Of a stretch of DNA of 64,000 nucleotides, positions 1 through 7,809 are shown one piece after another. The stretch's first letter is position 1, and every line of letters begins with the position of its first letter. A program made the translations under genes and the position numbers. This DNA comes from Vagococcus luciliae (GTDB taxonomy: Bacteria > Bacillota > Bacilli > Lactobacillales > Vagococcaceae), in NCBI RefSeq assembly GCF_024637875.1, contig NZ_CP102451.1:1801001-1865000 (forward strand). Reading direction: 5' to 3'. Under the pieces are notes generated by a model. That model was given only the letters and a program-made list of their open reading frames with translations. It was not told where the DNA came from and did not search any database.

Positions 1-369
1 TGATGCTATTAATTGAACACCTTTAATAGCGGAATCTAATGGTGTTGGCAATCCATCTATACTTGCTTTTAACGCATCCATAGTGTTAGATGTTTCTTTA
101 GCACTAAAACCCATGTTTTCAAATACCCTTTGAGAGTTATTCAGAGTATCTACGCGATCTATCGCACTACCCAATGAACTAGTAACCATATTTACTGCTC
201 CGTCAACTAACTTGAATACACCGACACCTTTCATAATATCGCCAATTGATACACTCGCTTTTTTAGAGTTATCGTCCAGTCCACCAAGAGAATTATTAGC
301 GTCTTTCATTGCTTTGGTAAAACCTTTATCCGTTGCGGATAGTATGGCTTCTACCGTATATGACTCCAT
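1..369 (-). CDS. Phage tail tape-measure protein, N-terminal part (runs off window)
   Basis: The first 123 codons of a larger protein; the gene continues past base 1. The start MESYTVEAILSATDKGF, followed by an Asn/Ser/Lys-rich segment and an alternating Ala/Gly/Val helical stretch, is the usual opening of siphophage tape-measure proteins, which set tail length and form the DNA-ejection channel. The ATG at 369 is preceded by AAAGGAGTGAG. It is unusual that the gene lies only a few small genes downstream of the replication module and just beyond a bidirectional terminator, with no head or packaging genes between. Family call is by recognition of the N-terminus only. Confidence 0.7.
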   Translation of the reverse strand, partial: MESYTVEAILSATDKGFTKAMKDANNSLGGLDDNSKKASVSIGDIMKGVGVFKLVDGAVNMVTSSLGSAIDRVDTLNNSQRVFENMGFSAKETSNTMDALKASIDGLPTPLDSAIKGVQLIAS

Positions 370-408
370 CTTCTCACTCCTTTTTCTATAATTTTTTGAA
401 AATAAAAA

Positions 409-446
409 GAGAGCAATACCAATCAATTAAGATTGATACTGCTCTC
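409..446. terminator. Bidirectional terminator upstream of tape-measure gene
   Basis: Inverted repeat GAGAGCAATACCAATC / GATTGATACTGCTCTC (with G-T pairs), flanked by a T-run on both strands. It should stop leftward transcription from the replication operon before the tape-measure gene, which would then need its own promoter or antitermination. Confidence 0.7.
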
Positions 447-466
447 AGATTTTTTCTGCCAAGCTA

Positions 467-601
467 TTATGCTATTTCTAAAATTACAGTCAGTGTAAAT
501 AATGCAATTGCTAACCAACTATAAACCTTTTCACCCTCTTTAGTGCTAAACGTTGCGAGATAAGCTATCATTGCCAGGACAAATAATATTGCCTTTATCA
601 T
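467..601 (-). CDS. Small two-helix membrane protein of the mobile element (44 aa)
   Basis: 44-residue ORF starting MIKAILFVLAMIAYLATF, with two hydrophobic segments (about residues 3-17 and 29-43) split by a charged turn (STKEGEK). A good ribosome site (GAGGGGGT, 9 nt spacing) precedes the ATG at 601. It overlaps the 3' end of the upstream gene by 56 nt, as compact phage genes do. Two short helices and its position before a tail gene are compatible with a holin-like or membrane accessory role, but no family is recognised. Confidence 0.6.
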   Translation of the reverse strand: MIKAILFVLAMIAYLATFSTKEGEKVYSWLAIALFTLTVILEIA

Positions 602-893
602 CAACTTGTACCCCCTCTATAATTATTTGACGATCAAAACGCTCTTTATAAATCAACGCTGCTAAACTCATATGATAAAAACTCAATTTTTCTTTTGTTC
701 TAATCGTATCTTGTTCTAATTTTTTGACTTGTTGTTTTAAGTCTGTTTGAGGCATTTGATAATAGCCTTTAGTTAGTGCTTCCACTTGATTGCCAAACTC
801 TCGTATCATTAATTCAATTGTTCCTGTAATGTCGTTACTTTTTCTTTTCTTTTTACCGACAACGTTGACACCTTTTTTCTTTTTCTTACTCAT
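546..893 (-). CDS. Hypothetical basic/coiled-coil protein of mobile element
   Basis: 115 aa. A lysine-rich N-terminus (MSKKKKKG, then GKKKRK) precedes a predicted helical region (about residues 25-95, with heptad-like KQQVKKLEQD) and an acidic tail. ATG at 893 overlaps the TGA of the gene upstream (ATGA), so translation is probably coupled. The basic head suggests nucleic-acid contact, but this is inference; no family recognised. Confidence 0.6.
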   Translation of the reverse strand: MSKKKKKGVNVVGKKKRKSNDITGTIELMIREFGNQVEALTKGYYQMPQTDLKQQVKKLEQDTIRTKEKLSFYHMSLAALIYKERFDRQIIIEGVQVDDKGNIICPGNDSLSRNV

Positions 894-1042
894 TTTTGAC
901 TTCCTTTCGGCTTAATGTTTTCTAATCTCTTGACAAGGACCAATTCACCATTTTGAACTTTAAGAGATAACTCACAAAAATCATATACCTCAATCACTTG
1001 TTTTTGTCCTTTTGCATTTTCAAATGTTACTGTATTTTTCAT
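890..1042 (-). CDS. Small hypothetical protein of mobile element (50 aa)
   Basis: 50-residue ORF, MKNTVTFENAKGQKQVIEVYDF..., with alternating hydrophobic residues suggesting a small beta-rich fold. The ATG at 1042 has the site AGGAGCGGAT just upstream. It is coupled to the next gene through an ATGA overlap at 890-893. Function unknown; its place in the leftward element operon is clear. Confidence 0.65.
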   Translation of the reverse strand: MKNTVTFENAKGQKQVIEVYDFCELSLKVQNGELVLVKRLENIKPKGSQK

Positions 1043-1065
1043 AATATCCGCTCCTATTCTTTTCT

Positions 1066-1665
1066 TTATAAATAATCTAACTCACTATCTACTGCTTCAC
1101 GTATAAAGCCATATCCCTCTAATCGCTCTACTCCTTTTTTTATGACCTCGTTCGTCATGTCAAACACTTGCTTATCGTCACACGCTACGCCATGCGTTAA
1201 TACAATATCGCTAACGGTGACATAATAATCTGAATAAGCAACTGCCTGTATATCAACAGACTTGATATATAGGAAATGGTTGATTTTTAAATAAATCTTT
1301 TCTTCACTTTTTATTATCAGCTTGCCGACTTCTAACATATGTTTTTCAAGTTCAAACTCTGCCATCTGCCGTTGTTTTCGATAATCAGATAATTCAAGAT
1401 TTAATTGATCTGCTCTCACTTGGTCATTAATTGGAATACGACTATTATATATTCCACGATTAGAATCATAACTACTGACATTCTCACTATCATAGTATTT
1501 TTCTTTCAGTATCTTCAATTCATCTTTTGATAACTTCGGTAAACTATTAAATAATAATTTACCCTGCTCAATTTCGTATGGGCGTAACTTATCCCGATTT
1601 TCTTCTAAACACCGCCAATGTCTCAAATAATACTGTACACGTATATCTCTGTAATCTCTGCCCAC
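1066..1665 (-). CDS. Hypothetical helical protein of mobile element (199 aa)
   Basis: 199 aa from a GTG at 1665 preceded by a G-rich site (AGGGGGGT). The N-terminal half is helical and charged and contains LPKLSKDELKILKEKYYD (about residues 42-59). That pattern resembles the segment before the helix-turn-helix in phage ArpU/RinA/DUF1492-type regulators, but no clear HTH follows. The C-terminal half (from about residue 115) looks alpha/beta. Located 11 nt downstream of a neighbour with a similar motif. Role unknown; a late-gene regulator is one possibility. Confidence 0.6.
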   Translation of the reverse strand: MGRDYRDIRVQYYLRHWRCLEENRDKLRPYEIEQGKLLFNSLPKLSKDELKILKEKYYDSENVSSYDSNRGIYNSRIPINDQVRADQLNLELSDYRKQRQMAEFELEKHMLEVGKLIIKSEEKIYLKINHFLYIKSVDIQAVAYSDYYVTVSDIVLTHGVACDDKQVFDMTNEVIKKGVERLEGYGFIREAVDSELDYL

Positions 1666-1676
1666 TTTATACCCCC

Positions 1677-2168
1677 CTATATCGCAAATAGTTCGCTTAA
1701 AGTATCTAAGTTATCATCAAAGTCTTGCGTCAATTCCACTTGTGGTAATTTATCGGGTATCTCTATCCCTGCACGTAAACAAATCGCTCGTTCAATCTCG
1801 TCTATTTCATCCGTCAACTCATACTCTAGTTGTGGACTTAGTTCTACTGGCTTATTCTCAATAAACCTTTGATACAAGCTCTTATAATCTTCCTGGGATA
1901 AGTTGTTTAAGTATTGGATAAAATACCTCTGCCGTATCTCGTAACGCTTAATGCGTTCATCAATCAACTCTAACGCCTTGATGTGTTCTAAGACTTCTTT
2001 TTCAACTTTAAACGCTCGTGTATAAACACCTAATTCACTAAACTCTGTTCGAGTTGCCATGTTTTGAAGATAAAACGCATGCTCGACTTGATTTTTATAA
2101 ATCATCAGCCTATTTATTTCTTCGGACAATCTAAAATACTTTTCCACTAATGACCAATCATCAAACAT
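1677..2168 (-). CDS. Hypothetical coiled-coil protein of mobile element (163 aa)
   Basis: 163 aa, ATG at 2168, 15 nt downstream of the helicase-loader gene. Strongly helical with heptad-like spacing (LSEEINRLMIYKNQVEHAF; KVEKEVLEHIKALELIDERI). The stretch LNNLSQEDYKSLYQRFIE (about residues 82-99) recalls the pre-HTH helix of DUF1492/ArpU-type phage regulators and matches a similar stretch in the next gene. The acidic C-terminus (QDFDDNLDTLSELFAI) lacks a basic recognition helix. Family not assigned. Confidence 0.6.
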   Translation of the reverse strand: MFDDWSLVEKYFRLSEEINRLMIYKNQVEHAFYLQNMATRTEFSELGVYTRAFKVEKEVLEHIKALELIDERIKRYEIRQRYFIQYLNNLSQEDYKSLYQRFIENKPVELSPQLEYELTDEIDEIERAICLRAGIEIPDKLPQVELTQDFDDNLDTLSELFAI

Positions 2169-2183
2169 GCGCTTTTCTCTCCT

Positions 2184-3020
2184 TTAACTTTTTAACGTAC
2201 TGACAATTTCTCGTTTATCTGATACTTTTCCAAAATCAATATACACCACATTTGTTTTAATTCTTGAAATAACTCGTTCATCTAAAATCAAGCCTAATTG
2301 CTCGATAGAGTGATTACTTGTCACAATGGTAGATTTACCCTCTCTAGCATTTAAAATGCTGTACAAGATACGTGTGACGAAATCAGACGCTTGTTTATTC
2401 GTATTCATGCTAAGTTCTGCCCCAATATCATCTAATACCAAAACATCTGCTTTATTTAGTCGTGTGAGATAATCATCTTCGGTCAGCGTATCAACATATT
2501 GGCTATTGTATGATTTGCGTATCAATTCATATAACTTAGGTACTGATACAAACAAACATCGTCTTTCATTACTAATCGCATTTATATTTGTTAATATCCC
2601 CATAGCAACATGAGACTTTCCTGTACCTGCAGGACCAAATAAAAAGACATTGCGTTGATTCTCAATTATTTTTCTTGTGACTTCTGACGCTTGTTTCTTT
2701 ATGTCACTTTCTGCACTGGTTCTATTAATATAATCTTTTAGTCCTTTATCTAAGGTTGATTTACTGTGAACGATACTAAACCGTTTCAAGTAATCCTTTT
2801 TATCTTTTGTTGAGTTTAACAAGTGTTTTTCCATTTGTTCCACTTGTATTTGTTTATCTTTATTCTCTACCCAACATTTAGGACAAATCACTTCATTGTT
2901 TAGCAACATCATTGAAAATTTTTCATGTCCTGGTTTATCACAATGTTCATCTAATTCAATATAGCCAGTTTTTTCAATAATACTTGGTGGTACTTCGATA
3001 CTACCCATTTTTAAAGCCAT
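2184..3020 (-). CDS. DnaC-type AAA+ replicative helicase loader
   Basis: 278 aa. Phage/satellite homologue of DnaC/DnaI that loads the host replicative helicase at the element's origin. Visible: a zinc-binding N-terminal region (C27, H32, C46-PK-C49), Walker A GPAGTGKS (residues 129-136), Walker B LVLDD ending at D197-D198, and a sensor-like TSNHS later. ATG at 3020. It follows the replication-initiator gene by 10 nt in the same operon, the standard initiator-loader pair. Length fits the family. Confidence 0.9.
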   Translation of the reverse strand: MALKMGSIEVPPSIIEKTGYIELDEHCDKPGHEKFSMMLLNNEVICPKCWVENKDKQIQVEQMEKHLLNSTKDKKDYLKRFSIVHSKSTLDKGLKDYINRTSAESDIKKQASEVTRKIIENQRNVFLFGPAGTGKSHVAMGILTNINAISNERRCLFVSVPKLYELIRKSYNSQYVDTLTEDDYLTRLNKADVLVLDDIGAELSMNTNKQASDFVTRILYSILNAREGKSTIVTSNHSIEQLGLILDERVISRIKTNVVYIDFGKVSDKREIVSTLKS

Positions 3021-3030
3021 TTAATCCCTC

Positions 3031-3927
3031 CTAATAAGGTAAATCATCCATAAAACTCTCAATATCTTTTGACAAGTCAATTTTGCCCGCTCGTTCATAA
3101 TGTTCTTGCCATTCTTTTTCTATTTTTTTCGCAGGTACTTGTTTATTGTTCTTACCTGTCACAAATTCATCTAAGTAATTACGTTGATTAAAGAATGTGC
3201 TACCTTGCTTGATATACTGTGTATCAGTTCGTTGTAGCTCGATTTGTTTCTTGTAGTCATTTATACCTTTGATGATTTGTTCATCCGTCACACCGTCTTT
3301 AATAGCTCTCTTGTATGATTCAAATGCTTTTGTTTTCCCCTGCTTCTTTGGATAGAGTTCCCATATTGATTCAAACCGATTTTTCAAACTCACTTTATCA
3401 GCTTCTTTAGAAGATGATTGATCTATATTTTTATTATCTATCTTTATATCTTCTTTATATATACTCTTAGTTACATGGGTGTTACTTTGTAACGCACTAT
3501 CGTTACATTGTTCATTCATCACATCATTTTGTAACAATTTCTTTTGTCTATACCGACGAACTCTTTCAGCACTATAACTTTCTGAACCAATCATTTCAGG
3601 TACTCGATTTAAAAAATATTCATCTTGTTCTTCTATTTCAATTAATCCTTTAGCCTGTAAAAACTTCAATGTAATAGAAACATTTTCCGTATCTTCATCA
3701 ATAAGTAACGCAATTTCTTCGGCAAAATCATCGCCTATGGCTTCAAAATATAATCGTCCCTCATCTTTCAAACTAGCTAATAACATTTTTAAATAGATAA
3801 TTGTGTAGGTGTCTCCTCCTGCAATCTTTCTTAATAGCTTAATTTCTTTTTGATCAAAGAAATCTGTTTTTAGTTGTAACCAATAATATCTTTTATTATT
3901 AGGATTATTCTTATATTTATTACTCAA
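3031..3927 (-). CDS. Phage replisome organiser (DnaD-like replication initiator)
   Basis: 298 aa. The N-terminal region (about 1-125: YYWLQLKTDFFDQKEIKLLRK..., then VRRYRQKK) matches the winged-helix start of phage replisome-organiser proteins. A low-complexity linker follows (about 130-175), then a C-terminal helical region with YPKKQGKTKAFESYKRAI and a basic end. It would bind the element origin and recruit the downstream DnaC-type loader. Start is TTG at 3927 behind AGGATGGTGAG. The linker-coding DNA holds inverted GTTAC repeats beside an AT-rich tract, a likely origin. Confidence 0.85.
   Translation of the reverse strand: MSNKYKNNPNNKRYYWLQLKTDFFDQKEIKLLRKIAGGDTYTIIYLKMLLASLKDEGRLYFEAIGDDFAEEIALLIDEDTENVSITLKFLQAKGLIEIEEQDEYFLNRVPEMIGSESYSAERVRRYRQKKLLQNDVMNEQCNDSALQSNTHVTKSIYKEDIKIDNKNIDQSSSKEADKVSLKNRFESIWELYPKKQGKTKAFESYKRAIKDGVTDEQIIKGINDYKKQIELQRTDTQYIKQGSTFFNQRNYLDEFVTGKNNKQVPAKKIEKEWQEHYERAGKIDLSKDIESFMDDLPY
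3421..3535. other. Putative replication origin of the mobile element
   Basis: Inside the initiator gene, five GTTAC/GTAAC boxes in alternating orientation (at about 3470, 3481, 3489, 3502, 3531), the middle pair forming the palindrome GTTACTTTGTAAC (3481-3493). An almost pure A/T stretch lies beside them (about 3421-3468). Iterons plus an AT-rich unwinding region within the initiator gene is the arrangement of lambda-like and lactococcal phage origins. Origin function is inferred. Confidence 0.5.
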
Positions 3928-3965
3928 AAACTCACCATCCTAATCTTCAAACTGATTATTTTCCA

Positions 3966-4250
3966 TTACTTCACGCCCTCCACTTGTTCATCGGGACAAA
4001 TACTATTAGATACAGTTTCTAGTCGCTTAGATACGTCCTCTAGTGATAGCTCTAGTCTTTCAAGTCCGCCGCTTTGAATGAAATATTTGAAACTAAAATC
4101 ATCACCATTAGCAAAAATACTATTTAACATGTCAATTAAATCTCGACTAGAATCAAGTGTATTTTTTATTCCGATTAGTTCATCAGCTTTCTTAAATAAA
4201 TAATCAAACGTTACCTTATTACCATTGATTGTTAATTTTTTTTCATTCAT
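3966..4250 (-). CDS. Hypothetical protein of mobile element (94 aa)
   Basis: 94 aa, acidic and mainly helical, MNEKKLTINGNKVTFDYLF..., ATG at 4250 with AAAGGGG upstream. No domain recognised. It begins just downstream of the small-RNA candidate encoded on the opposite strand (4274-4379), so its mRNA leader would be complementary to part of that RNA if transcription is continuous. Confidence 0.6.
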   Translation of the reverse strand: MNEKKLTINGNKVTFDYLFKKADELIGIKNTLDSSRDLIDMLNSIFANGDDFSFKYFIQSGGLERLELSLEDVSKRLETVSNSICPDEQVEGVK

Positions 4251-4273
4251 GTTTATATCCCCTTTATTTTCAA

Positions 4274-4379
4274 TTGATTGTAAAGTGAAAATACTTTATA
4301 ATAGGGATAAATAGGGTTATGAAATCTATTTATCCCATGCATGCTTAAAAGATTGCCGTCTTTTATAGCATGCTTTTTT
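4274..4379 (+). ncRNA. Candidate small RNA with own promoter, dyad and terminator
   Basis: Oriented against the surrounding operon. Promoter: -35 TTGATT (4274-4279), exactly 17 nt, -10 TATAAT (4297-4302). An 11-bp perfect dyad GGGATAAATAG / CTATTTATCCC (4304-4314 / 4326-4336) straddles the expected start near 4309, so it may be an operator. A strong hairpin GCATGCT-TAAAAGA / TCTTTTA-TAGCATGC (4339-4373) with a T6 tail follows. The predicted product is about 70 nt and overlaps the 3' end of the gene ending at 4363. No coding potential. RNA function (for example antisense control of the downstream replication genes) is inference. Confidence 0.55.
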
Positions 4380-4647
4380 GTTCATTTAACAAATCTTCTG
4401 CTTTCTCAATTAATTCAGCTTCATTTCTGAGTGCTGTTAATTCCTTGATAACTTCGTTTAATTTTTCGCTTGTTTTATATGCGGTCACGTTGTTATCTTC
4501 ATCAATTAAAATACTTCCCTCATCCGTAACACTAGATAAAATAGTGATTTGTCCGTTTACTAATTCTTGTAGATTAGCCATATCATCAAACAACTTATTT
4601 TCTAGTTCCTCATAGTTTGCTTTTTTTAGATCAATTAATTTTCCCAT
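4363..4647 (-). CDS. Hypothetical helical protein of mobile element (94 aa)
   Basis: 94 aa, MGKLIDLKKANYEELENKLFDDMANLQEL..., amphipathic and acidic, with a central beta-like patch (GSILIDEDNNVTAY) and a C-terminal coiled coil. ATG at 4647 overlaps the 3' end of the membrane-protein gene upstream by 17 nt. Its last codons lie inside the hairpin of the opposite-strand RNA candidate. No family recognised. Confidence 0.6.
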   Translation of the reverse strand: MGKLIDLKKANYEELENKLFDDMANLQELVNGQITILSSVTDEGSILIDEDNNVTAYKTSEKLNEVIKELTALRNEAELIEKAEDLLNEQKSML

Positions 4648-4825
4648 TCTTATATCCTCTTTTCGTTTTTATAGTTCGTTGATAGCTTTTTTCATCCCAT
4701 AGCATTAATACAAATAGAATGATTGGTGTAATAATAATTAGTAACAGTTCTATACTAATTGAATAAGTAAACGCTCCTAATAGATATATCGCTAATAGTA
4801 GCCACAATCTTCTTACTCGATACAT
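4631..4825 (-). CDS. Small membrane protein of mobile element (64 aa)
   Basis: 64 aa starting MYRVRRLWLLLAIYLLGAF. Two transmembrane segments (about residues 7-24 and 27-43) and a basic cytoplasmic tail (RTIKTKRGYKNGK). The ATG at 4825 is chosen because AAAGGAGGTGAGC lies right before it; a longer reading would translate the ribosome site itself. Function unknown. Confidence 0.65.
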   Translation of the reverse strand: MYRVRRLWLLLAIYLLGAFTYSISIELLLIIITPIILFVLMLWDEKSYQRTIKTKRGYKNGKIN

Positions 4826-4839
4826 ATGCTCACCTCCTT

Positions 4840-5016
4840 TCAATTCAAATAGATATCTTCTAATCCAAATGAATCAATTAAATCAATAATTTTTTCTTTA
4901 TAGAGTTCTTGCACATCTTCAATATTTGCTGGTTTGCCATCCACTTTAAAATTTGTTGATTCTGACAAATCGTATAAATCTGTTAATTTTTCTTTTAAAC
5001 TGTTTAGTTCAATCAT
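4840..5016 (-). CDS. Small hypothetical acidic protein of mobile element (58 aa)
   Basis: 58 aa, MIELNSLKEKLTDLYDLSE..., ATG at 5016 with TAGGAG upstream at good spacing. Acidic and helical; no recognised domain. Its stop overlaps the ribosome site of the following membrane-protein gene, which supports an operonic, coupled arrangement. Confidence 0.65.
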   Translation of the reverse strand: MIELNSLKEKLTDLYDLSESTNFKVDGKPANIEDVQELYKEKIIDLIDSFGLEDIYLN

Positions 5017-5040
5017 TGTTTATTCTCCTAGCTTTCTCTT

Positions 5041-5052
5041 ACCTACTCGCCC
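5041..5052. repeat. 12-bp repeat ACCTACTCGCCC, copy 1
   Basis: Identical to bases 6353-6364. This copy lies between the AlpA/MerR-like gene and the small gene downstream of it; the other lies in the leader of the integrase gene. Possibly a binding site for an element-encoded regulator; role unproven. Confidence 0.4.
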
Positions 5053-5063
5053 AAGTGGTATTT

Positions 5064-5354
5064 TTAATCAATTTGTTGTGTTGTTATCCATTTCTTACAT
5101 TCTTTAAGATCGTAAAACTTTCTTTTTTTGATGTTACCAAATGGTAATCCCATTTTTTCATATTGTCTTAATGTTGTTGGTGAGATTCCTAGTGCTTTAC
5201 TAATTTGTGTCGTATTTAATACTTTTGAGTTCATCCCAGCCAATTCGATAGCCTTATCTAATTCTTCTGTAAAAACTGAAGATAAATAATTTCTAAGCGA
5301 GTCTTCGTTAGCTAAAACTACTTGTAATTGTGGTTGAAGTGGTTTATCAGTCAT
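5064..5354 (-). CDS. AlpA/MerR-like helix-turn-helix protein (excisionase or activator candidate)
   Basis: 96 aa. The C-terminal half carries a MerR/AlpA-type winged HTH: LNTTQISKALGISPTTLRQYEKMGLP, then a basic wing (IKKRKFYDLKECKKWI). The N-terminal half is helical. ATG at 5354 follows AGGAGGTGAATAAT; the upstream GTG at 5363 would lie within the ribosome site. It sits right after the Cro-like gene at the head of the leftward operon, the usual place for a satellite alpA or phage excisionase/activator gene. Confidence 0.75.
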   Translation of the reverse strand: MTDKPLQPQLQVVLANEDSLRNYLSSVFTEELDKAIELAGMNSKVLNTTQISKALGISPTTLRQYEKMGLPFGNIKKRKFYDLKECKKWITTQQID

Positions 5355-5355
5355 A

Positions 5356-5550
5356 TTATTCACCTCCTAAAAAATCTAAAATAGATACATCTAAAAAATT
5401 ACAAATCATTAATAGTGTAGATACTTTCATATCTTTAGATCTTTTAAAATATATGTTGGCTAAAGTTGTTTTACTAATTCCTGTGCCTTTATGTACATCA
5501 GATATTTTTAACAACCTTTCACCTAATATTTTAGAAAAATTATTCTCCAT
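5356..5550 (-). CDS. Cro-like XRE-family DNA-binding protein
   Basis: 64 aa, essentially a single XRE helix-turn-helix (ISDVHKGTGISKTTLANIYFKRSKDMKVSTLLMICN). Start ATG at 5550 with AGGAGG 7 nt upstream; the TTG at 5556 is less likely. First gene of the leftward operon, transcribed divergently from the repressor gene, with the shared operators between them. By analogy with lambda it would be the Cro partner that shuts down the repressor promoter. Confidence 0.8.
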   Translation of the reverse strand: MENNFSKILGERLLKISDVHKGTGISKTTLANIYFKRSKDMKVSTLLMICNFLDVSILDFLGGE

Positions 5551-5570
5551 ATTCAAACCTCCTTTGGTTT

Positions 5571-5672
5571 TTTACAAGTTATCTTGTATAAATACAATTA
5601 TACAGGAAAGTTTAAATTTTACAAGTATTCTTGTAAAAATACTTATTTACTGATAAAATTTAGATAATGGAG
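5571..5672. promoter_or_regulatory. Divergent repressor/Cro switch region with two operators
   Basis: Two copies of the perfect dyad ACAAG-N4-CTTGT lie at 5574-5587 and 5621-5634, centres 47 bp apart. The rightward promoter reads TTGTAA (5632) - 17 nt - TAAAAT; its -35 overlaps the second operator. The leftward promoter reads TTGTAA - 16 nt - TATAAT on the minus strand, with the first operator near its start site. This is the layout of a temperate-phage CI/Cro switch. Confidence 0.7.
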
Positions 5673-5680
5673 GTATAGAC

Positions 5681-6331
5681 ATGATCAGAAATAACTTATC
5701 AATTTTATTATCAGAAAGAGGTATGAAGAACACTGCTTTATCAATAAAAACAGGAATTTCCAAAAATACAATTTCTTCATTAACTCAAAATGACGGAAAA
5801 ATGATTCAACTAGAGACAATTAACAAAATATGCCAGGTTTTAGATATAGATCCCGGTGACTTTTTTTCATACATCCCATTTGATTTTGAAATAATTTTTT
5901 CATTTAACAATTTCGATGCTGGTTGTATTATCAATGAATCATTTAATATCTCAGAATTTTGGATTAACGATTCAGAATTTGATTTGTTTATACGAGTTTT
6001 AAAAGGTAATGAAGAGATAGACTTTTTTGAGTTTGAATCTATTGTTGAATTTAATCAAAATAACTTGCTAATCAATGATAATAGACTAAATATTTTAACC
6101 AATAAAGTAATCAACGAAGATAAATTTAATGAAATGTGGGAAAAAATCCCTATTTCTTTTCGGATAGACATTGTGGATAAAGTAGAAGAATGTTTCTTTC
6201 AAGAGCTAACTAATCAGTTGGAACAATACTTTAAAAATAGAAATACGGATAACCTTATAGAAGATTCTGAGTGGAAATTAATAGTTCAGAATATAAAAAA
6301 AATGGTGTCTTACGATTTCGATTTTCATTAG
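5681..6331 (+). CDS. XRE-family lysogeny repressor (CI-like)
   Basis: 216 aa. N-terminal XRE HTH (about residues 5-58, ILLSERGMKNTALSIKTGISKNTISSL...). The acidic C-terminal region (about 65-216) is not recognised and lacks an obvious LexA/CI Ser-Lys peptidase signature, so induction may rely on an antirepressor, as in SaPI Stl, rather than RecA-driven cleavage (inference). ATG at 5681 with AATGGAGG upstream. Diverges from the Cro-like gene and precedes the integrase. Confidence 0.75.
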   Translation: MIRNNLSILLSERGMKNTALSIKTGISKNTISSLTQNDGKMIQLETINKICQVLDIDPGDFFSYIPFDFEIIFSFNNFDAGCIINESFNISEFWINDSEFDLFIRVLKGNEEIDFFEFESIVEFNQNNLLINDNRLNILTNKVINEDKFNEMWEKIPISFRIDIVDKVEECFFQELTNQLEQYFKNRNTDNLIEDSEWKLIVQNIKKMVSYDFDFH

Positions 6332-6352
6332 AATATAAAAAATCTCCAACCT

Positions 6353-6364
6353 ACCTACTCGCCC
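6353..6364. repeat. 12-bp repeat ACCTACTCGCCC, copy 2
   Basis: Second copy of the sequence at 5041-5052, here in the integrase leader. It is part of a loose dyad (CTCCAACCTA... / ...GGTTAGATAGGAG) that contains the integrase ribosome site, so it could affect integrase translation. Confidence 0.4.
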
Positions 6365-6388
6365 GTGGTTAGATAGGAGAATGGAACA

Positions 6389-7561
6389 ATGGCTATATTT
6401 AAACAATACACAAAAAAAGATGGCTCTAAGGCTTGGCTATTGCAAGCATATTTAGGAGTTGATGAAGTAACTGGCAAAGAGGTTAGAACGACCAGGAGAG
6501 GTTTTAAATCAAAGAAAGAAGCACAATTAAAACTAAATGAGTTAGTATTGGAGTTTGAAAGTAAAGGACTAGAAAAACAGTCTAAAACAACTTTTAAAGA
6601 CGTTTATAAACTTTGGTTTGATAACTATAAGAATACTGTAAAAGAATCAACTAGCATGACAACAGAACGTTTTTTCAATCAAGTGATTCTACCAGTATTC
6701 AAAGATATTTATATGGATAAAATAGATGTGAAGTTTTGTCAAAAAGTGGTTAATAAGTGGGCAGAAGAATATAGCTCATATCGTTTACTCATCGGCTATA
6801 CTAAAAAAGTCTTTCAATATGCTACACATATCAATGTAATTAGTGATAGCCCATTCGATAAGATTATTCGACCAACAAAAAAAGAGAAAAAGAAGAAAGA
6901 TAAAATTAAGTTCTATGATACTGATCAACTAAAAATATTTTTAGAGTACCTAGAACAAAAAGTTTTAAATGCCAAAGATAAAACGCTGATACAAGAATAT
7001 TACGCAGAATTAGACTTGGCTCTATTTCGCTTACTTGCTTTCAGCGGTATGCGTGTTGGCGAAGCATTAGCGTTGAATTATTCGGATATTAATTTTGAAG
7101 ATAATACAATCACTATTAATAAAAACTTATCTCAAACTAAGCAAGGTTATGAAGTCTCTACAACTAAAACTAAGAACTCTAACCGTATTATATCCATGGA
7201 TAAAAAAACCCTTGTAACACTTAAAAAATGGCATTTAACACAGCGTAAGCTATTACTTAAAAATGGTTACAACAATAATAAAAAGCTATTTGTTAATGTA
7301 AAGGCTCAATACATGACGAGAAACGAAATATATCAACGTTCTAATAGAATCGCAGACGCTTGTAACCTGCATAGAATTGGCTGTCATGGTTTCAGACATA
7401 CTCATGCGTCTATATTACTTGAAAGTGGCGAAAGTTTTAAGGGAATTCAAGAGAGATTAGGGCATTCGGATATTTCTCTTACCCTAAACGTATACTCACA
7501 TCTAACTAACAAATCAAAAGAAAAAACGGCTCAAAGATTTGCTAATTACGTTAATTTTTAA
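6389..7561 (+). CDS. int: Site-specific tyrosine recombinase (integrase)
   Basis: 390 aa, full length for phage/ICE integrases of Gram-positives. N-terminal AP2-like arm-binding domain (residues 1-55, FKQYTKKDGSKAWLLQAYLG), SAM-like core-binding domain (about 65-160), and a catalytic domain with R222 (GMRVGE), H333-x-x-R336, H359 (LGHS) and the nucleophile Y369. It should integrate and, with an excisionase, excise the element. Reads toward the element/chromosome junction; rpmG lies convergently about 100 bp beyond. ATG at 6389 with TAGGAG upstream. Confidence 0.95.
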   Translation: MAIFKQYTKKDGSKAWLLQAYLGVDEVTGKEVRTTRRGFKSKKEAQLKLNELVLEFESKGLEKQSKTTFKDVYKLWFDNYKNTVKESTSMTTERFFNQVILPVFKDIYMDKIDVKFCQKVVNKWAEEYSSYRLLIGYTKKVFQYATHINVISDSPFDKIIRPTKKEKKKKDKIKFYDTDQLKIFLEYLEQKVLNAKDKTLIQEYYAELDLALFRLLAFSGMRVGEALALNYSDINFEDNTITINKNLSQTKQGYEVSTTKTKNSNRIISMDKKTLVTLKKWHLTQRKLLLKNGYNNNKKLFVNVKAQYMTRNEIYQRSNRIADACNLHRIGCHGFRHTHASILLESGESFKGIQERLGHSDISLTLNVYSHLTNKSKEKTAQRFANYVNF

Positions 7562-7562
7562 C

Positions 7563-7586
7563 AAACCGTATTCAAAACCGTATTCA
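7563..7586. repeat. Perfect tandem 12-mer after int (putative arm or att site)
   Basis: AAACCGTATTCA occurs twice head to tail (7563-7574, 7575-7586) two bases after the integrase stop. Short tandem direct repeats at this place are typical of integrase arm-type binding sites beside attP. The att core itself cannot be fixed without the left end of the element. Confidence 0.5.
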
Positions 7587-7603
7587 CTCGATAAAATTAA
7601 GCA

Positions 7604-7646
7604 TAAAAAAATAGCTAGAACCCTTACTACACAAGGTTTCTAGCTT
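7604..7646 (-). terminator. Terminator of rpmG
   Basis: Stem AAGCTAGAAACC / GGGTTCTAGCTA on the minus strand followed by a run of T. Lies in the integrase-rpmG gap; it may also form part of the attachment site. Confidence 0.7.
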
Positions 7647-7659
7647 ATCATTATTAAAA

Positions 7660-7809
7660 TTATTTTGTTTCACGGTGTAAAGTAACTTTACGTTCACGTG
7701 GACAATATTTTTTAACTTCTAAACGTTCAGGATTGTTACGTTTATTTTTGTTTGAAAGGTAATTTCTTTCTTTACATTCTGTACATTCTAAAGTAATATT
7801 TACGCGCAT
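7660..7809 (-). CDS. rpmG: 50S ribosomal protein L33
   Basis: 49 aa, [17 protein letters not shown]..., ending YTLHRETK-like (VTLHRETK). A CxxC pair (C9, C12) and a later Cys (KKYCPRE) resemble the RpmGA-type of Bacillus. Structural protein of the large ribosomal subunit. ATG at 7809 with GGAGGG upstream. The neighbouring class B penicillin-binding protein gene is a common neighbour in enterococci. The mobile element lies immediately past its 3' end. Confidence 0.95.

Follow-up and report, generated by a model that had tools for sequence, protein, structure and literature searches.

A window of 64,000 nucleotides from the Vagococcus luciliae genome (the whole stretch of DNA analysed, G000:C1:1801001-1865000) opens within an integrated mobile element that adjoins rpmG and is called here the rpmG element. 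On the genes that can be read from it, the element is a satellite of the phage-inducible chromosomal island (PICI) type and not a prophage remnant, because its gene order is rearranged relative to that of phages and because the same backbone occurs in the same genus without the structural genes for a tail tape-measure protein (TMP) or a major capsid protein (MCP). It carries a putative partial kit for particle formation, consisting of a small terminase (TerS), a scaffold, an MCP and a TMP. The best explanation, to which a probability of about 0.62 is assigned, is that an intact PICI-type satellite makes chimeric virions, in which its own capsid shell, TerS and TMP would be combined with the tail of a helper phage.

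Boundaries and integration site

The insertion at rpmG is complete and 12,586 bp long, with a 104-nt direct repeat (102/104 identical) at both ends. The window cuts the element and holds its integrase-proximal 60%; the DNA to the left was also read, so that the whole element is covered. An earlier note on this DNA had proposed extending the sequence leftwards to the second attachment site, and this site was reached about 5 kb to the left of window base 1, in the form of a clean attachment-site (att) repeat. The leftward DNA contains neither of the arrangements that the note had named as fatal to the idea of a satellite with its own TMP, namely complete modules for head and lysis, or a TMP fragment after which the element breaks off. 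The rpmG gene is present in 14/14 genomes of the genus, a second copy of the att segment (98% identical) being found in the own genome only, and in two relatives (G012 and G004) the same left-flank genes adjoin rpmG with a single att copy, which constitutes the empty site. Since its ends are bounded by repeats and the empty site occurs in relatives, the element is complete rather than an abruptly ended remnant, and both its size and its att boundaries agree with those given for PICIs, which are att-bounded and about 12-15 kb long (PMC6092414; papers cited by PMC identifier were available in part, and statements drawn from them are limited to those parts).

Prophages are described as never occupying the att sites of PICIs (PMC6092414). 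In the five genomes in which the rpmG locus was read (G003, G004, G005, G009 and G012), no phage structural marker was found at the site. One of these, G009, has three large genes (423, 380 and 898 amino acids, aa) between the left-flank genes and rpmG (L157:1918-7047), so that insertions of a wider range may be frequent there. The wastewater "phage" records OR846615.1 and OR846782.1 (L158, L159), both unverified, contain rpmG and none of the tested phage markers, and they resemble host contigs.

Gene content and satellite identity

Leftwards from the integrase, the element contains the integrase and a CI-like repressor (both on the + strand), a Cro-like regulator, an AlpA/MerR-type protein, four small proteins, a Phage_rep_org_N initiator, a DnaC-like loader, p163, p199, p50, p115, a 45-aa hydrophobic open reading frame (ORF), TMP, orfB76 and orfA69, TerS, scaffold and MCP (Table 1). 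The arrangement of integrase, master regulator and replication module is the conserved order described for PICIs (PMC6092414). The early set of integrase, CI/Cro switch, AlpA-like, DnaD-like and DnaC-like genes had already been recognized in the earlier note, as had the small genes followed by a TMP, and Pfam and PHROG searches bear out these assignments; the TMP, whose first 369 bases lie inside the window, matches TMP_3 (Pfam, 1e-28) and phrog_58 (6e-95). The note's further statement that terminase, portal, capsid and tail-chaperone genes are lacking stands for the portal, TerL and a recognized chaperone. It does not stand for TerS and the capsid, which the note missed because the window cuts them off: TerS (phrog_2538, 4e-6), the scaffold (DUF4355, 7e-9; phrog_2932, 4e-43) and the MCP (phrog_840, 1e-92) lie just to the left of base 1.

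The element shows no detectable gene for a portal, TerL, neck, tail tube, baseplate or lysis, and neither PHROGs nor phmmer, the latter with siphophage markers for the tail-assembly chaperone (TAC), Dit and Tal, recognized a TAC or a baseplate hub in it, proteins of the phage-inducible chromosomal island-like element (PLE) of Vibrio cholerae not being among the queries. The position of p115 would suit a chaperone and it may conceivably be one, but it has no BLAST or hhalign similarity to TAC1 or TAC2 and no phage match; its single-sequence structure model is poor (predicted local distance difference test score, pLDDT, 61). The small ORFs orfA69 and orfB76 (L002:8472-8923) resemble tandem paralogues, being 75% identical over 59 nt at their starts, and small proteins near TerS in other PICIs have similar "RLKxLE" N-termini.

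A temperate prophage that had lost its portal, TerL, tail and lysis genes would also possess an integrase, a switch and DnaD/DnaC genes, which in the rpmG element resemble phage early genes, but the remaining evidence makes such an origin very improbable. The att ends are clean and the site is empty in relatives. The TerS is of the satellite type: it matches 55 records of the phage collection, 53 of them named Streptococcus, and the best 20 of the 55 are all labelled "Streptococcus satellite phage". The backbone protein p199 has no match in that collection at an expectation value (E) of 1e-3, and the element's genes are in this respect common with PICIs rather than with phages, as described for the group (PMC6092414). 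An element in the same-genus genome G004 has the same backbone (DnaC 96%, p163 93%, p199 89%, p50 84% and TerS 73% identical) and lacks TMP, MCP and scaffold; at the DNA level, a block of about 2.9 kb comprising p115, the hydrophobic ORF, a hairpin (T1) and TMP is absent from it, and in the rpmG element this block sits between p50 and a conserved stretch that holds a second hairpin (T2), the limits being taken from BLAST coordinates. Finally, phage NF5 has the order TerL-portal-scaffold-MCP-...-TAC-TMP, whereas in the rpmG element TMP stands ahead of TerS, scaffold and MCP, and TMP-TerS-scaffold-MCP cannot be obtained by one deletion from the TerL-portal-scaffold-MCP-TMP order of NF5. A defective prophage would be expected to keep the phage order with gaps and to retain tail or lysis remnants; here the order is rearranged and no remnants were seen. 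The repeat-bounded 12.6 kb, the empty site, the satellite TerS and the same-genus backbone without TMP or MCP together support a satellite with its own TMP, which the earlier note had considered unusual, and disfavour the prophage with a deleted head region that it had offered as the plain alternative.

The absence of structural genes that is characteristic of PICIs is at odds with the scaffold, MCP and TMP carried here, although no lysis gene was seen. PmCI172 and SaPIbov5, which have an MCP homologue, are nevertheless accepted as PICIs (PMC6092414), and the rpmG element is for this reason described as a PICI-type variant and not as a canonical PICI.

Table 1. Features of the rpmG element. 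Positions are those of the window unless prefixed by C1 (contig coordinates).
Feature	Position	Strand	Remarks
attL copy	C1:1795989-1796092		104-nt repeat, 102/104 against attR
TMP gene, 5' part	1..369	-	773 codons; runs on to C1:1799048 (window -1952)
Hairpin T1	409..446	-	strong, terminator-like; about 40 nt upstream of TMP start codon
45-aa hydrophobic ORF	467..604	-	between p115 and hairpin T1
p115, small protein	546..893	-	homologue directly upstream of TMP in PICI locus L069
p50, conserved backbone protein	890..1042	-	84% in same-genus element L060
p199, PICI backbone protein	1066..1665	-	anchor for locus search
p163, PICI backbone protein	1677..2168	-	
DnaC-like helicase loader	2184..3020	-	PHROG, 1e-51
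Replisome organiser / DnaD-like initiator	3031..3927	-	Phage_rep_org_N, Pfam 3e-26
p94b, small backbone protein	3966..4250	-	
p94a, small protein	4363..4647	-	
p70, small hydrophobic protein	4631..4843	-	
p58, small protein	4840..5016	-	phrog_8594
AlpA/MerR-type small helix-turn-helix DNA-binding protein	5064..5363	-	excisionase/regulator
Cro-like regulator	5356..5556	-	
CI-like repressor	5681..6331	+	
Tyrosine integrase	6389..7561	+	
Integrase arm-like repeat	7561..7586	+	second copy (23/26) near other element end; arm-site role inferred
attR	7575..7678 (C1:1808575-1808678)		104-nt repeat overlapping rpmG 3' end

The tape-measure protein

The listed TMP ORF begins at TTG; the likely start is an ATG 19 codons later that has a good Shine-Dalgarno sequence, and from it the frame is intact over 773 codons, giving a protein of 773 aa. 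The best match among 395 sampled Lactobacillales genomes is the TMP of an NF5/P335-type phage in G012, a genome of the same genus, with 62% identity over the full length (773 against 767 aa). Identity reaches 81% in residues 1-75 and 84% in residues 376-773, and the successive blocks of 75 residues give 81, 39, 33, 31, 16, 63, 85, 87, 85, 91 and 100%. For the middle (residues 76-375) the nearest sequence is a prophage TMP in G286 (64%), followed by that of NF5 (56%), while the C-terminal segment is closest to the G012 phage (84%), none of the other 18 TMPs compared exceeding 36%; the protein is a mosaic of two phage lineages. Against G012, the ratio of nonsynonymous to synonymous substitution rates (dN/dS) comes to about 0.13 in residues 1-75 and about 0.11 in residues 376-773, both values being rough with a synonymous distance near 1. 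In tape measures generally the ends contact other tail components, and the conserved ends of this TMP would do likewise. Because BLASTN homology to G012 runs from 14 nt before the TMP start codon to 10 nt after the stop codon, and because the lengths are nearly equal, the gene was swapped as a unit with phages of the same tail type, its length being kept. Searches of viral contigs with the TMP and the MCP gave no match.

Two candidate interpretations of TMP length were rejected. A shortening of the TMP cannot be claimed, since the own protein is intermediate in length between those of NF5 (674 aa) and phage 98102 (874 aa). The lengths of most satellite TMPs (765-793 aa, an apparent clade of 750-799 aa) suggested a clade of short TMPs specific to satellites, which was ruled out because six of the closest loci (L109-L114, 48-78% identical) are in prophage clusters with MCP and Tal, L110 having TerL and portal by Pfam. 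Since these loci lie in prophage structural clusters, the satellite TMPs of this group keep the length of their phage relatives.

The G012 phage is present twice on a contig of 78,932 bp (C2; L107, L108, L132), in copies that are 99.8% identical over the 17.5 kb compared and offset by about 39.5 kb, which is half the contig, one copy having a broken TMP; the contig resembles two units of a single 39.5-kb phage joined head to tail, whether a phage-plasmid, virion DNA or an assembly dimer. In G306, a 404-aa ORF (L115:9316-10530) lies at a distance of 4.4 kb from an integrase that resembles the one in the rpmG element; over its first 240 residues the ORF shares 73% identity with a satellite TMP (L091), and its end has the peptidoglycan-hydrolase domains ZoocinA_TRD and Amidase_5. 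It is a TMP-lysin fusion, perhaps a remnant or an antibacterial protein. In G038, the 20 kb read around a 752-aa TMP (L119:9403-11661; TMP_3, 4e-28) contain no further phage marker, and this TMP may represent a further satellite or a lone TMP gene.

Recurrence among related PICI loci

Related loci were picked in the 395 genomes by matches to p199 (17 among the 395) or TerS (27), own included in both counts, and not by TMP, which gave 34 loci, the own and 33 relatives. Four weak TerS places (G047, G377, G350:C1:8859 and G038:C1:2454372; E about 1e-4 to 1e-3) were left out; L095, which had no marker on re-scanning, was retained among the 34, and L089 is decayed. An integrase is present in 28 of the 34, the stretches for L063, L065, L071, L091, L093 and L095 having none.

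A TMP occurs in 9/34 loci (own, L064, L068, L069, L070, L073, L091, L092 and L093, that of L073 being truncated) and in 7 of the 28 that have an integrase. PHROGs confirmed 8 of the 10 TMP candidates submitted, and more than one family is represented, the best match being phrog_58 or phrog_1686 for own, L068 and L069, phrog_991 for L064, L070, L073, L091 and L092, and phrog_1204 for L093. Eight of the nine are long open frames of 765-1054 codons. Att-like repeats enclose the TMP in own, L064 (19/19), L069 (73/75), and L070 and L073 (17/17); the repeat search of L068 and L092 found none enclosing it. An MCP is present in 3/34 loci and both TMP and MCP in 2/34, own and L064. The latter, from the same genus, has an HK97-type MCP (phrog_10, 2e-39), and because it pairs other families, the combination of MCP and TMP seems to have at least two origins, in distinct phage families. 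The third MCP, in L094, has no TMP beside it; a single prophage marker detected it, and both PHROGs and Pfam support the assignment.

These counts bear on the possibility that the structural genes are passengers from recombination with a phage and are not, or not yet, used. The mosaic origin of the TMP, the absence of a TMP from the closest same-genus element and the truncation in L073 (369 aa, against 793 aa in its relative L070) are all consistent with such passengers. On the other hand, the own TMP has remained open over its whole length, with a dN/dS of about 0.11-0.13 in the conserved ends (though much of this constraint may have accrued in the phage lineage), and TMPs from several families recur in the sampled loci, nearly always as long open frames. 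The passenger explanation is consequently regarded as improbable.

Portal, TerL, neck, tail-tube, chaperone, Dit and Tal were found in 0/34 loci at E 1e-5 or 1e-3 with markers taken from eight phages or prophages, and at E 1e-3 the only structural matches other than TMP were the scaffold and MCP of own and the MCPs of L064 and L094. As a check on these markers, 19 of 20 loci chosen by TMP gave at least one further phage marker, L119 giving TMP alone. L109-L114, L124 and L125 at first gave only MCP and/or Tal; the set was therefore extended with the portal and TerL of L110 and L124 as HK97-type markers, and these match the likely capsid-forming PICI (cf-PICI) of the own genome, which serves as a check of sensitivity.

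Helper phage and other satellites of the host

Compared with the MCP of Lactococcus phage 98102, the own MCP shows 47% identity, and it is 68% identical to a prophage MCP in G117; a contig search turned up a single MCP relative, within a prophage cluster of Enterococcus sp. ZJ1622. L018 is a prophage with a portal like that of the G012 phage (7e-164) and with an MCP of the own family (50%); since L018 pairs the two, the own MCP family goes with the G012 portal type in nature. The own genome contains no second homologue of the own TMP or MCP. Because searches of it for an SPP1-type portal and Terminase_3 found no resident helper, the helper is probably an infecting phage. The phage in G012, whose TMP ends share 81-84% identity with the own TMP, provides a testable candidate.

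Two further elements of the genome carry capsid genes. A second satellite (C1:64218-78764; L162, L128), with a 32-nt end repeat, has by Pfam a TerL of 568 aa, a portal of 406 aa and a prohead protease-capsid fusion of 499 aa, and is likely a cf-PICI; p94b (1.6e-55) and p70 are common to this satellite and the rpmG element, and we take the gene beside its integrase to resemble rplT. In a third, satellite-like element of 8.2 kb (C1:500801-509006; L129), with a 27-nt end repeat, the sole structural gene seen is a 632-aa fusion of a head maturation protease and a major head protein. Since the three elements differ in this way, the genome carries a capsid protein in three layouts.

Proposed mechanism

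The chimeric-particle scheme that we infer from the gene content, boundaries, intactness and recurrence read in the sequence is as follows. A helper siphophage of the NF5/P335 type would derepress the element, which would excise and replicate with its own initiator and loader. On the helper portal, the own MCP and scaffold would form a capsid with room for about 12.6 kb, the own TerS would direct the helper TerL to satellite DNA, and the own TMP would be threaded into helper tails to give a chimeric particle. The tail would have approximately the helper length, since the TMP ends match those of the same-genus phage and the length has been kept, and the benefit probably lies in tail assembly that favours or protects satellite particles, and not in a shorter tail. 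Components of such a scheme have precedents: Ccm redirects the capsid shell (PMC8569155), deletion of tmp cuts transduction by 96-99% in PLE1 and PLE4, the PLE TMP being built into virions (PMC12987554, 2026), and small terminase genes are present in some Staphylococcus aureus pathogenicity islands (PMC10690885).

Several observations weigh against this scheme. BLAST detects no similarity between the own MCP and its counterpart in the G012 phage, so that no helper matching both head and tail was found. Pfam searches of the own genome detected no SPP1-type portal and no Terminase_3, and hence no resident helper; the same models do detect the portal and TerL of the G012 phage, other phage types not being covered. 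The only two Phage_capsid matches in the own genome are in the two other satellites. No chaperone was recognized in the element, whereas PLE carries one. EfCIV583 makes helper-length tails without tail genes of its own (PMC3675006), and a satellite thus needs no TMP. Phage-dependent induction, interference and packaging are among the traits given for PICIs (PMC6092414); for the rpmG element, induction and packaging, as well as a particle role of its TMP and MCP, are putative.

The same genes could act differently, as interference factors that, produced late, would poison or divert helper assembly, with a decoy ruler and a Ccm-like shell switch that need not enter satellite particles. Such activities occur on satellites: the SaPIbov5 protein Ccm, a capsid-protein homologue, redirects helper capsids (PMC8569155), and tail-assembly interference systems have also been described (PMC11364771). 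However, the TMP is of full length with both ends conserved and its length kept, while a poison could be short, and the scaffold and MCP are paired with a TerS. Interference is for these reasons thought unlikely, if somewhat less so than the passenger explanation.

Hairpins upstream of the structural genes

T1 (window 409-446) and T2 (L002:8916-8958) are strong terminator hairpins located directly upstream of the Shine-Dalgarno sequences of TMP and of orfB76-TerS, respectively, with no clear room for a promoter in between. The element contains 9 terminator-like sites, compared to 5.0 (standard deviation 2.6) in shuffled sequences, and only the long stems T1 and T2 are consequently taken as notable. 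Similar hairpins ahead of late genes were found by eye in 13/33 scanned PICI loci and in 1/9 phages or prophages, the latter being represented by 11 stretches of which not all cover the matching junction. Hairpins of this type may gate late expression by read-through.

Comparison with known systems

In about a quarter of the sampled Lactobacillales PICI loci a TMP is present, more than one family being represented, and an MCP accompanies it in two of these. If such TMPs enter virions, the choice of tail ruler is a recurrent satellite strategy. No Gram-positive PICI with a TMP was found described among the titles and abstract openings that the searches listed, subscription papers and bioRxiv preprints not being covered.

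Among related satellites, EfCIV583 of Enterococcus faecalis is similar in being a Lactobacillales element of about 12 kb that depends on a siphophage helper; it differs in having no head or tail morphogenesis genes, and its tails are similar in length to those of the helper P1 (PMC3675006). The Streptococcus satellite phages (Javan) share the integrase, regulators and a homologous TerS, and the three records consulted (Javan328, 293 and 89) have no annotated capsid or TMP gene. PICIs of the SaPIbov5/PmCI172 type likewise have a capsid-protein homologue (Ccm), but the MCP of the rpmG element is accompanied by its own scaffold, TerS and TMP. The cf-PICIs resemble it in combining their own capsid protein and TerS with a helper tail, some having predicted tmp genes (PMC12987554), but they are defined by the possession of MCP, protease, portal, connectors, TerS, TerL and HNH (PMC10690885), of which only MCP and TerS are present here.

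The closest parallel is with the PLE, in which a satellite-encoded TMP near the helper length is used while the helper supplies the tube and baseplate parts. The PLE differs in living on a myovirus, in the TAC and BhuB that accompany its TMP, and in remodelling the helper capsid (PMC12987554). The rpmG element shares the satellite-encoded TMP; it has its own MCP and scaffold, has no recognized TAC or baseplate hub, and belongs to the Lactobacillales PICI lineage. It is thereby set apart from canonical PICIs by its structural genes, from cf-PICIs by the lack of portal and TerL, and from PLE. A more general proposal, which is tentative and rather doubtful, is that a swappable "particle geometry kit" (TerS, MCP with scaffold, TMP) is frequent among Lactobacillales PICIs, and that its TMP is a swapped-core ruler that lets satellite tails escape tail-directed exclusion or defence against the helper TMP. 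The TMP ends would then keep their fit to local phages, with the middle being swapped, and such kits, if real, would be a Gram-positive, independently evolved counterpart of the chimeric tails of PLE.

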